51,197 nucleotides of DNA from Alphaproteobacteria bacterium (lineage in GTDB: Bacteria > Pseudomonadota > Alphaproteobacteria > JAJFIK01), in the NCBI GenBank assembly GCA_021774965.1, contig JAJFIL010000055.1:1-51197 (forward strand), written 5' to 3'. Below the pieces are notes generated by a model. That model saw only the letters and a program-made list of their open reading frames with translations, had not been told where the DNA came from and did no database searches. The position numbers and the translations under genes were made by a program. Each line of letters opens with the position of its first letter. Position 1 is the stretch's first letter. Positions 3,597-37,425 of this stretch are shown here, in pieces.

Positions 3597-3712
3597 TGGT
3601 GGAGCCGGGGGGAGAGACATCGAACCCATTGGTTGCCAAAACAATGGGTTCGCGAGCCCCCCTTGCGCCATTGCGCATATTGACGGGCGCCGGGCGGTTA
3701 GCCCGCCCTTTT
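3597..3712 (-). repeat. Palindromic intergenic block with tRNA-3'-end-like tail
   Basis: Read on the minus strand, this block ends in CGGCTCCACCA, identical to the last 11 bases of the tRNA-Ala gene at 5339-5414. It carries TTCGAT as in a T-loop, but with extra bases. Just inside is a perfect 11-bp inverted repeat (3621-3631 with 3642-3652, arms CGAACCCATTG/CAATGGGTTCG, 10-base loop), enclosed by runs of G6 and C6. Further on are a TGCGC-CATT-GCGCA hairpin (3664-3677) and a GGGCGG/CCGCCC hairpin (3692-3708) followed by TTTT on the plus strand, which could act as a terminator. No protein-coding gene is supported here. It looks like a decayed tRNA-derived or REP-like mobile repeat. Confidence 0.5.
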
Positions 3713-3750
3713 GGAGCCATGAGCAAAGCGAATTGGCGTGAAACGATAGA

Positions 3751-3780
3751 TGGTGGACCTGACAGGAGAAACATCGAACC
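3751..3780 (-). repeat. Second tRNA-3'-end-like fragment
   Basis: On the minus strand this reads GGTTCGATGTTTCTCC, then a short segment, then AGGTCCACCA. That is the T-loop and CCA-ending 3' tail of a tRNA with an insertion. The same TTCGATGT-TCTCC core occurs in the copy at 3597-3627, in the same orientation 154 bases away. There is no cloverleaf, so it is not a functional tRNA. Confidence 0.45.
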
Positions 3781-3897
3781 AATTGCTCGATATTTTAGAG
3801 GAATGGAACAGGGTTCTTCAGCATACGTCGCTTGGGTCAAATGACCCACCCGATCTGAACATTTGACCAGAGGTTACATCTTCCATATGAAATAGTG

Positions 3898-3976
3898 AAT
3901 TTCACGGTGTATAAAATAGTAATTACACGGTATTAATAATTGCAATTACACGGGTAATTAAGTTATAATTACACGG
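3898..3976 (+). repeat. Four direct repeats phased at exactly 23 bp
   Basis: The decamer AATTACACGG starts at 3921, 3944 and 3967, and a variant AATTTCACGG starts at 3898. The step is 23 bp each time, close to two helical turns. The stretch between copies is AT-rich and partly conserved (AATAGT before the first two). The array ends 46 bases before the DUF4143 ATPase start and overlaps its promoter. This arrangement is typical of an operator or iteron bound cooperatively by one protein. Confidence 0.75.
3940..3969 (+). promoter_or_regulatory. Sigma-70-type promoter of the DUF4143 ATPase gene
   Basis: A perfect -10 hexamer TATAAT (3964-3969) lies 18 bases after TTGCAA (3940-3945, four of six matches to TTGACA). 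Repeat 3 overlaps the -35 and repeat 4 overlaps the -10, so anything binding the repeats should block RNA polymerase. The predicted start of transcription is near 3976. Confidence 0.6.
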
Positions 3977-4021
3977 GGATTGCAGAGCCCCGCATTCCAC
4001 CACACACGAATAAGGAGACAC

Positions 4022-5251
4022 ATGAAAAAGCACATCAACCGTTGGCAAAAAACTCGATTGGAGGAGGCCTTGGCGGAGCGCCGCGTTGTCCTTCTCTCCG
4101 GGCCGCGGCAATGCGGCAAGACCACGCTTGCGCTCCAGCTTCAAACAGCCGATGTCGAATATCGCACTTTGGATGATCAAAACTTTCTGCAAGCCGCATT
4201 GGCTGATCCGCAAAGCTTCGTTCGGCACAAAGGGACCACGCTCATAATCGATGAGATCCAGCGTGCGCCAGATCTTCTTCCGGCGATCAAAATGGCGGTT
4301 GATCAGGATACGGCCACGGGGCAATACCTTCTCACTGGTTCAGCAAACATCAATGCGATTCCTACAGCCAAAGAATCCCTTGCAGGAAGGGTTGCTAAAG
4401 TCCGGCTCCGGCCTTTGGCGGAAGGTGAGCTCAACGGTTCCACACCCGATTTTCTTGCCCGCGCCTTTGAAGGTGAATTTGATGGATCTATCACAGAGGG
4501 CAATCGCGACACACTTCTTGAGTTGGGTTTTCGCGGTGGTTACCCCGAAGCAATTGAGATGTCCTCACGCGCCCGCACAAGTTGGTATCGCGACTATGTC
4601 AGCGCTTTACTGGAACGTGATCTGCAAGATATAGCGCGCGTTCATCGCATAGACGCCATGCGAAAACTGGTTGAGGTTCTTGCCGCCTGGTCCTCGAAAT
4701 ACATGGATATTGCCAACATCACGTCAAAGCTGTCGATCAAACGACCCACTGTAGAGGTCTACATCAATGCGCTTGAAGCGCTTTACATCGCAGAGCGCGT
4801 GCCGCCGTGGACCAAAACAGATTACCAGCGCGTTGGTACCAAGGATAAACTTTTCATGACGGATTGCGGTATGATGGCCGCAATTTTGAATTGGCAGATT
4901 GATCAGGTTCGCTTTGATGCAGACCGGTCCGGCAAGCTCATAGAAACGTTAGCCTTCAACGAACTAAAGGCTCATGTGGATAATTCAGACATCTACAAAC
5001 TTTATCATTATCGGGATTGGGAACAGCGGGAAATAGATTTTCTAATCGAGCGCAATACCGATAGTGCGCTTCTTGGCATCGAGGTCAAAGCCTCTGAAAC
5101 AATAGGCAAGGGTGATTTTAAACATCTCGCGTGGTTCCGCGACAACCTTGCATCGGAATGTTCTTTCAAAGGCATCATTCTCTATTCTGGAACACACACA
5201 TTGAGTTTTGGAGAAAACCTGTGGGCAGTGCCATTTGGTGCGTTGTGGTAA
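4022..5251 (+). CDS. DUF4143 / AAA_14 family ATPase
   Basis: A 409-residue protein of the AAA_14 plus DUF4143 architecture. The N-terminal P-loop has Walker A GPRQCGKT (about residues 27-34), Walker B LIIDEIQRAP and the LLTGSAN sensor. A middle winged-helix-like segment includes YMDIANITSKLSIKRPTVEVYI. The C-terminal part (EREIDFLIE-like, then GIEVKAS) resembles a PD-(D/E)XK nuclease core. Family members are widespread, often laterally transferred, and of unknown role; DNA binding is likely. The start is the ATG at 4022 with AAGGAG 5 bases upstream; an in-frame TTG at 3980 lies in the promoter repeats. It is a lone gene between tRNA-like debris and tRNA-Ala, consistent with a small transferred cassette that regulates itself through the phased repeats. 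Confidence 0.88.
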   Translation: MKKHINRWQKTRLEEALAERRVVLLSGPRQCGKTTLALQLQTADVEYRTLDDQNFLQAALADPQSFVRHKGTTLIIDEIQRAPDLLPAIKMAVDQDTATGQYLLTGSANINAIPTAKESLAGRVAKVRLRPLAEGELNGSTPDFLARAFEGEFDGSITEGNRDTLLELGFRGGYPEAIEMSSRARTSWYRDYVSALLERDLQDIARVHRIDAMRKLVEVLAAWSSKYMDIANITSKLSIKRPTVEVYINALEALYIAERVPPWTKTDYQRVGTKDKLFMTDCGMMAAILNWQIDQVRFDADRSGKLIETLAFNELKAHVDNSDIYKLYHYRDWEQREIDFLIERNTDSALLGIEVKASETIGKGDFKHLAWFRDNLASECSFKGIILYSGTHTLSFGENLWAVPFGALW

Positions 5252-5300
5252 GCGGAATTGAACCGCAAATCTTGCGATTTCAATGACTTGGCCTACCACC
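5245..5300 (-). other. tRNA-like three-arm element
   Basis: On the minus strand the ends pair as an acceptor-like stem (GTGGTA with TACCAC). The 3' part is a T-arm with the canonical loop context (GCGG-TTCAATT-CCGC, matching GGTTCRANTCC). The middle folds as one arm (CAAGTC with GATTTG, 13-base loop). At 56 bases with only three stems it is too short for an elongator tRNA and has no proper 7-base anticodon loop. It overlaps the last bases of the DUF4143 gene and lies 38 bases downstream of tRNA-Ala. It may be a tRNA remnant, a processed leader of the tRNA transcript, or an attachment-site scar. Confidence 0.35.
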
Positions 5301-5338
5301 AAATTTGAGAGCACTGCTAACCCATTGAAATAGTTGAA

Positions 5339-5414
5339 TGGTGGAGCCGAGGGGAATCGAACCCCTGACCTCTACACTGCCAGTGTAGCGCTCTCCCAAC
5401 TGAGCTACGGCCCC
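5339..5414 (-). tRNA. tRNA-Ala (anticodon GGC)
   Basis: A 76-base cloverleaf on the minus strand starts GGGGCCG and ends CGGCTCC-A-CCA, with the CCA encoded. The acceptor is 7 bp with one G-T pair, the D-arm contains AGCTCAGTTGGGAGAGC, the anticodon stem CTACA/TGTAG encloses a loop with GGC, and the T-arm contains GGTTCGATTCC. GGC reads the GCC and GCU alanine codons. It sits between the DUF4143 gene and the FYDLN gene. Its 3' tail recurs in the debris at 3597. Confidence 0.96.
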
Positions 5415-37053: not shown

Positions 37054-37425
37054 CGCATCTTCCGTCCATCCCGTGAGGCGCACCAGAGCGCCCCAGCTTA
37101 GACGCCGCGCCGAGGCGCTTTGTCTTTCCCACATGACCTTAAGCCCACTTGGCTTTAAGCCGACTTGGCCCTAAGTAAGGCCGATCCGCACCCCCCATCG
37201 GTGCTTGTCGCCGAAAATCATCCACCAGCTTTACGTACAACTCAAGAAGAAATTGTGCGCTGCACTAGTGAGCGACATTCGCCGTTAAGCTTCCATGTCA
37301 TTCCTTTACCAAACCTTTCCAGGCTGGCGGGGAGGTACCCTTTAGAAATAGGCCTGTTCTGGGGCGAGGCAAGACGTTGGGACTGCGGCAGGAAGGACAC
37401 AGTTTCGTGTTCCTTGGGGCGCACT
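37054..37425. other. Intergenic region between the EIIA and hprK genes
   Basis: No gene is supported in these 372 bases. Near the EIIA end are two direct repeats 16 bp apart: TTAAGCCCACTTGGC at 37139-37153 and TTAAGCCGACTTGGC at 37155-37169, one mismatch. Near the hprK end is an imperfect hairpin (AAGGACAC with GTGTTCCTT) around 37393-37416, which lacks a T run on the minus strand. The region likely carries the promoter for EIIA-HPr and the 3' end of the hprK transcript. Confidence 0.45.
37139..37169. repeat. Two 15-bp direct repeats upstream of the EIIA gene
   Basis: TTAAGCC-[CG]-ACTTGGC occurs twice with a 16-bp step. A truncated third copy (CCTAAGTAAGGC) may follow. The position upstream of the EIIA gene makes an operator possible, but the step is 1.5 helical turns, so the copies would face opposite sides. 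Confidence 0.45.

Follow-up and report, generated by a model that had tools for sequence, protein, structure and literature searches.

Phased 22- to 23-base-pair repeats on the promoters of DUF4143 ATPase-nuclease genes, candidate operators of the proteins that they precede

Which protein reads a repeated DNA sequence that lies on the promoter of an ATPase gene? The question is raised by a stretch of 51,197 nucleotides from an Alphaproteobacteria bacterium (assembly GCA_021774965.1, contig JAJFIL010000055.1; this whole stretch is hereafter the window), in which four copies of a short repeat, spaced by 23 base pairs (bp), precede a gene for an AAA_14-DUF4143 protein. We compared this array with the upstream regions of homologous genes, and the pattern of conservation suggests that each ATPase probably binds its own array and represses its own promoter. 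The elements concerned are as follows, in window coordinates.

3898 to 3976, plus strand: phased array, four copies of AATTWCACGG with 13-bp spacers (sequence, repeat tools, shuffles).
3940 to 3945, plus strand: -35-like hexamer TTGCAA, which runs into the start of copy 3 (promoter scan).
3964 to 3969, plus strand: -10 hexamer TATAAT, which runs into the start of copy 4 (promoter scan).
4012 to 4017, plus strand: Shine-Dalgarno-like AAGGAG (sequence).
4022 to 5251, plus strand: AAA_14-DUF4143 gene, 409 amino acids (Pfam, PADLOC, conservation, AlphaFold2 model, fold search).

A first-pass annotation of this DNA had described four decamers phased by exactly 23 bp, the last two covering the -35 and -10 of the only visible promoter, and both points were borne out. 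Sequence inspection and repeat tools placed AATT(T/A)CACGG decamers at 3898, 3921, 3944 and 3967 (spacing 23/23/23), the first of which, AATTTCACGG, differs by one base from the other three, all of them AATTACACGG. Tandem Repeats Finder reported 3886-3976 (period 23, 3.9 copies) with a score of 78, the highest in the window, and the 23-bp self-match of the region from -180 to +20 upstream of the gene reached z = 12.9 against Markov shuffles. The 11-mer TAATTACACGG is confined to the array within its own 3.87-Mb genome assembly, and an Rfam scan over the array gave no match. The best plus-strand promoter-like match near the ATPase gene, TTGCAA-18-TATAAT at 3940-3969, is the one beneath copies 3 and 4. 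The accompanying proposal of constant two-turn phasing along one face of the DNA stood only as regards the constant 23-bp spacing: at 10.5 bp per turn, 23 bp make 2.19 helical turns, so that successive sites rotate by about 70 degrees and would lie on a slow right-handed spiral rather than on one face, and the periods found across the family are 22-23 bp, not 21.

Does the array belong to this gene or to its family? The same annotation had predicted repeats at about 23 bp upstream of DUF4143/AAA_14 genes in general, and had named their absence from close homologues as an argument against it. Homologues were taken from 385 genomes of the class, 399 of the phylum, plasmids, whole-genome contigs and viral contigs; among the last, a single-sequence search found no close relative and an alignment-based search found 28 loci. 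Around each computed start, the region from -180 to +20 was matched against itself at offsets of 15-35 bp and set against shuffles, and two stretches further upstream within the same loci served as controls. Non-redundant sets were reduced at 80% protein identity, and the close set comprises the 51 homologues scoring at least 199 bits against the window protein, a line picked after the data had been seen. Phased repeats proved to be a family-wide feature, the opposite of the outcome that would have spoken against the prediction: the best period was 22 or 23 bp in 48 of the 51 close homologues (controls 3/48 and 4/48), and z was at least 4 in 36 of them, all at 22 or 23 bp (controls 0/96). Among all 91 non-redundant members, 60 had their best period at 22/23 bp and 42 were strong there, and 23-bp arrays were also present at 25-32% identity (loci L045, L111, L130, L135 and L140). 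Only one of 479 upstream regions of other open reading frames (ORFs) in the same loci was strong (z of at least 4) at 22/23 bp.

The position of the arrays is likewise constant. They end at a median of 17 bp ahead of the start codon, cover on average 41% of the 200 bp searched and are AT-rich (28% GC). Of 39 arrays in which a promoter-like match was seen, 29 enclose both hexamers, frequently with TTGACT in one spacer and TACTTT in the following one, and the step from -35 to -10 is itself 22-24 bp, so that the array period would keep a bound protein in register with the promoter. Furthermore, among the 40 non-redundant members in which no clear array was seen, 20 have a palindrome (z of at least 3) within -80 to +15, over the promoter or the start codon, as against 0/77 controls, and some of these palindromes extend into the start codon (for example ATCCTTGCA...TGCAAGGAT). 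A protein on the array might instead activate its own promoter, or the array might store or license the enzyme; many copies do lie upstream of the -35, as is common for activator sites, and the protein architecture resembles that of signal-switched STAND and AAA+ proteins. We nonetheless hold either to be quite unlikely, as the last copies fall on the -35 and -10 and the palindromes on the -10 and start codon, both of which are repressor positions. At locus L107 of Azotobacter salinestris, a near-perfect palindrome (TACATGGTGTAATTTCA...TGAAATTACACCATGTA) runs from about -47 to +6, into the ATPase start codon.

While the geometry is fixed, the unit itself varies by clade, many units being reducible to AAT-N4-CGG. 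An exact class-wide pattern search with the window unit found it in the same genus only, and the idea that the array is a private feature of that genus was dropped once the unit sequence was allowed to change across homologues. The units are listed here by carrier; G003 is a Rhodospirillales metagenome-assembled genome, one of two other genomes of the same genus that were compared.

Window and G003: AATTACACGG.
Relatives at 51-59% identity: AAAATCGCGG or AAAAACGCGG.
Rhodobacterales plasmids and several other genomes: TTTCAAT(T/C)GGTCGG.
Rhizobium and Agrobacterium plasmids: TTCCAATTATC.
Neorhizobium: TTCCGAATTGGACGG.
Sulfitobacter: TTTCAATTGGTCGG.
Family in another class of the phylum: TTTACAATTGGACGG.
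Further units: TAATAGCCG(T/A)TTTCCGG and others.

The period is 23 bp in the window clade and 22 bp in the Rhizobium/Rhodobacterales clade. In genome G075, the units of three paralogues are 0.49-0.60 similar to each other, and two of the three, set beside units of relatives in other hosts, reach 0.95 (L032 with L030) and 0.96 (L059 with L080, on a Neorhizobium plasmid). Over the family, units are the more alike the higher the identity of their proteins (Spearman 0.50, Mantel p = 0.001). Judged by these comparisons, the repeat unit is a property of the gene rather than of the host. A host-wide regulator was rejected, because it could not easily account for paralogues with different units in one genome and for the same units recurring in other hosts.

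The closest relative of the window locus, in G003, allowed the extent of the conserved segment to be defined.

3742 to 5345, plus strand: unit common to the window and G003 (G003 C62:58788-60388; L007 8789-10389), 92.5% identity.
3750 to 3866, plus strand: small ORF of 38 amino acids within the shared unit, no Pfam match.
5339 to 5414, minus strand: tRNA-Ala (GGC), which bounds the shared unit on the right with its 3' end.

The G003 protein is 94% identical to the window protein and stands under the same four-copy array. Identity ends on both sides of this 1.6-kb unit, which contains the 38-amino-acid ORF, the array and the ATPase gene, with no integrase inside 3742-5345. In G003 the unit occupies a different genomic place, ahead of genes among which are one for a relaxase and one with a weak NikA-like match; the array and the gene have thus travelled together. 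Within the small ORF, 9 synonymous and 4 non-synonymous codon differences separate the two copies. Within the array, 1 of the 40 decamer positions differs, against 8 of the 39 spacer positions, a constancy of the decamers expected if a protein reads them. This bears on the suggestion that the repeats are mere tandem duplications of promoter sequence to which no protein binds. The period does equal the -35/-10 distance, and promoter duplication could yield such arrays, but we consider this extremely improbable: it is the decamers that are conserved and not the spacers, and unrelated units recur family-wide at the same two periods while the promoters of other genes are without them.

Could a separate protein, encoded by the host or by a neighbouring gene, bind the arrays and control the ATPase genes? 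This is what RptR does, a small separate repressor acting on three direct repeats over a defence-island promoter (PMC12255303), and a helix-turn-helix gene lies just upstream of some members (L108, L110). Such a regulator is nevertheless unlikely in the present family, given the divergent units of paralogues in one genome and the common unit of related genes across hosts. Moreover, neighbouring genes vary from locus to locus, and in the unit shared by the window and G003, made up of the array, the ATPase gene and the 38-amino-acid ORF, no small repressor gene was identified by Pfam. The differing paralogue units, the tracking of unit with protein identity and the shared segment that otherwise holds only the 38-amino-acid ORF all point to the ATPase itself as the reader.

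Several observations concern the borders of the shared unit. The 30-mer TGGTGGACCTGACAGGAGAANNNTCGAACC at window 3751-3780, at the start of the small ORF, resembles a tRNA 3' end with an insertion and occurs six times in genomes G000 and G003 (window 3751-3780; G000 C290:35957, C112:3519 and C112:4486; G003 C62:58794 and C62:60382). Pairs of it flank a segment of about 1.0 kb in C112 and one of about 1.6 kb in C62, like attachment or cassette borders. The 1-kb C112 segment has on either side what seems to be a copy of the 3' end of one luciferase-like monooxygenase gene (L024 125-487 and 1559-2851), a pattern suggestive of an insertion that duplicated this end. Window 3597-3652, immediately to the left of the shared unit, comprises another stretch like a tRNA 3' end and, after it, a strong hairpin with CGAACCCATTGGTT and AAACAATGGGTTCG as its arms.

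Is the protein equipped to read DNA? In the window protein, Pfam identified DUF4143 (114 bits, cut-off 28.1), AAA_14 (87.5 bits, cut-off 27) and a weak P-loop family only. AAA_14 and DUF4143 were both matched in 18/18 family members tested, as was the PADLOC model for PDC-S01 (PDLC04790), which matches the window gene over its full length with E = 1.6e-137. An AlphaFold2 model built from 29 sequences (mean predicted local distance difference test score, pLDDT, 92; predicted template modelling score 0.92) replaced an earlier one from 7 sequences (pLDDT 55) and delimits the following parts.

Residues 9 to 140, approximately: AAA+ ATPase.
Residues 144 to 204: helical part.
Residues 210 to 279: winged helix (helices 210-222, 230-237 and 241-253; strands 257-260 and 276-279).
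Residues 282 to 409: PD-(D/E)XK nuclease.

Walker A (G27-T35) and Walker B (D77-E78) are near invariant among homologues, the nuclease residues D339, E354 and K356 are kept in at least 99% of 68 homologues, leaving the PD-(D/E)XK motif intact, and the strand-helix pattern of such a nuclease is visible in the model. With this model Foldseek matched RuvB, ORC and STAND proteins and found no full-length relative; a sequence search of the PDB returned no relative beyond P-loop stretches and otherwise weak matches. Hence the window protein can confidently be modelled as an AAA+ ATPase with a winged helix and a PD-(D/E)XK nuclease, in agreement with the P-loop, winged-helix-like middle and nuclease-like end of the first-pass annotation. 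Its idea of an array bound by the protein of its own gene likewise gains support, at the level of sequence and model, from a unit that tracks the gene and from the modelled winged helix. The statement that DUF4143 ATPases have no known role needs an addition, since PADLOC lists the family as PDC-S01, a candidate defence gene. The literature presents PDC-S01 as a fusion of an ATPase and a PD-(D/E)XK domain, unvalidated, with 39,480 instances and fourth in frequency among defence genes across prokaryotes (PMC12988326). An anti-phage role of the family is therefore suspected; Qat, restriction or Drt3a genes adjoin some members, which is an association with phage defence only. In Thermus thermophilus, the gene of a distant DUF4143 member, TT_P0211, was 6.6-fold up with a plasmid in an Argonaute-bearing strain (PMC4406477), a hint of induction by foreign DNA in some members.

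The same architecture invites a replication or partition role, with the array as an iteron- or centromere-like site, the protein as initiator or partition ATPase and the promoter overlap as secondary. Phased direct repeats at 22-23 bp in AT-rich DNA, an AAA+ domain joined to a winged helix as in RuvB and ORC/Cdc6, and frequent carriage on plasmids (396 records) would all fit. It is very unlikely all the same: the window protein has no Rep domain in Pfam, up to 22 DUF4143 matches occur within one genome, the arrays sit on promoters and palindromes replace them in other subfamilies. Nor is there a DnaA box near the array, since a search for TTATNCACA over 3600-4100 found none on the plus strand and, when two mismatches were tolerated, a single weak TTATACACC on the minus strand. 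We know of no link between DUF4143 proteins and replication origins.

From this evidence we infer direct binding, repression rather than activation, cooperativity and a trigger, combined in the following model. Each array would act as a private operator for the ATPase-nuclease encoded just behind it. The winged helix would bind the asymmetric units head to tail, one protomer per 22-23 bp, probably cooperatively via the AAA+ domain. As the units lie on and between the hexamers, with a period of 22-23 bp that matches the distance from -35 to -10, protein bound there would exclude RNA polymerase and hold its own product low; a low level would suit a protein with an intact nuclease site, costly in excess. 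Titration or switching of the protein, for instance by invading DNA or through its nucleotide state, would open the promoter and let the product rise. In other subfamilies, a palindrome over the -10 and start codon would serve instead of the array.

Some observations weigh against an operator read by the adjacent ATPase. In the co-variation analysis, the partial correlations were 0.21 for the winged helix and 0.25 for the nuclease, and column by column the nuclease domain likewise scored no lower, so the winged helix is not singled out. Gene starts were assigned computationally, and a few close members show no clear array at the start so called, among them L054, and L055, whose array lies further upstream. 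Finally, two Roseobacteraceae plasmids carry two array copies with no ATPase gene nearby, so that array and gene are separable. These copies (L190 2500-2550 and L191 2500-2540, on Roseovarius and Roseobacter plasmids) follow a ScpB gene, as in relatives, with a Fic gene or a DUF433/PIN pair in the place where relatives have the ATPase; the simplest reading is that they are a relic of exchanged cargo. At L055, as an observation in its own right, an inverted-repeat element (GTGAAATCAAAACCTCT...AGAGGTTTTGATTTCAC) has apparently inserted between a 23-bp array and the ATPase gene, displacing the array.

Repeats apart from the gene occur in viruses as well. One marine phage (L185 13481-13514, L186 6600-6633) has TTTCAATCGGTC twice, 22 bp apart, in an intergenic region, with no DUF4143 gene in the available stretch; the pair might serve as a target or a decoy, or have some other meaning. 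Among viral contigs, a search for TTTCAATYGGTC pairs found one contig with the ATPase gene and two, of the same phage, without it. A search for AATTACACGG pairs found three matches with no ATPase found nearby, which could be due to chance, and pair searches with three other units found no match. In a more elaborate possibility, the array is a nucleation platform and safety lock: a short right-handed AAA+ filament, counted and inactive, would assemble on the 22-23 bp ladder, and incoming DNA that matches or titrates it would release or retarget the nuclease as a sequence-guided defence, for which the marine phage pairs could be targets or decoys. We regard this as unlikely and favour the autorepressor model. 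Elsewhere in the window, 37128-37175 holds three intergenic 16-bp tandem copies of the CCCACTTGGCCTTAAG type, between genes that we take, from reading their translations, to resemble an HPr kinase and a phosphotransferase system IIA protein.

In the openly searchable literature, covered partly by titles and abstracts, we found no mention of an operator, autoregulation, phased repeats or a recognised DNA sequence for DUF4143/COG1373 proteins. DUF4143 is named there in one paper, the Thermus study, and COG1373 in seven, none of which deals with regulation to judge by title and abstract. From the arrays follow, for each clade, a predicted recognition sequence and, in the protein itself, a predicted regulator. 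What these proteins bind thus becomes a simple gel-shift question, and a promoter reporter could reveal the triggers. Moreover, an operator that changes from clade to clade at a fixed 22/23-bp geometry offers a natural series for studying how the winged helix of this nuclease reads DNA.

Autoregulatory repeat operators are known as such, and to our knowledge none has come from an AAA+ nuclease of a candidate defence family with a unit that changes clade by clade. The plasmid Rep proteins (RepE, RepA, pi) are winged-helix proteins that bind phased direct repeats of about 20-22 bp, regulate their own synthesis and use palindromic operators too. The DUF4143 family has the same two operator shapes, direct repeats and palindromes, a likeness of working and not of membership: the window system is without a Rep domain or DnaA box, and its predicted binder is an AAA+ nuclease. 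Archaeal Orc1/Cdc6 proteins also join AAA+ to a winged helix and bind ORB repeats next to their own gene, whereas DUF4143 proteins add a PD-(D/E)XK domain and occur in many copies per genome. On the regulatory side, the closest precedent is RptR, whose site, like the present arrays, consists of direct repeats that overlie the promoter of a set of defence genes. This repressor is a small, separate protein, a homodimer, and acts at three 9-bp repeats around a palindrome; full repression needs two repeats (PMC12255303). In contrast, the DUF4143 units are 22-23 bp apart, asymmetric and clade-specific, and the ATPase is the only constant gene beside them.
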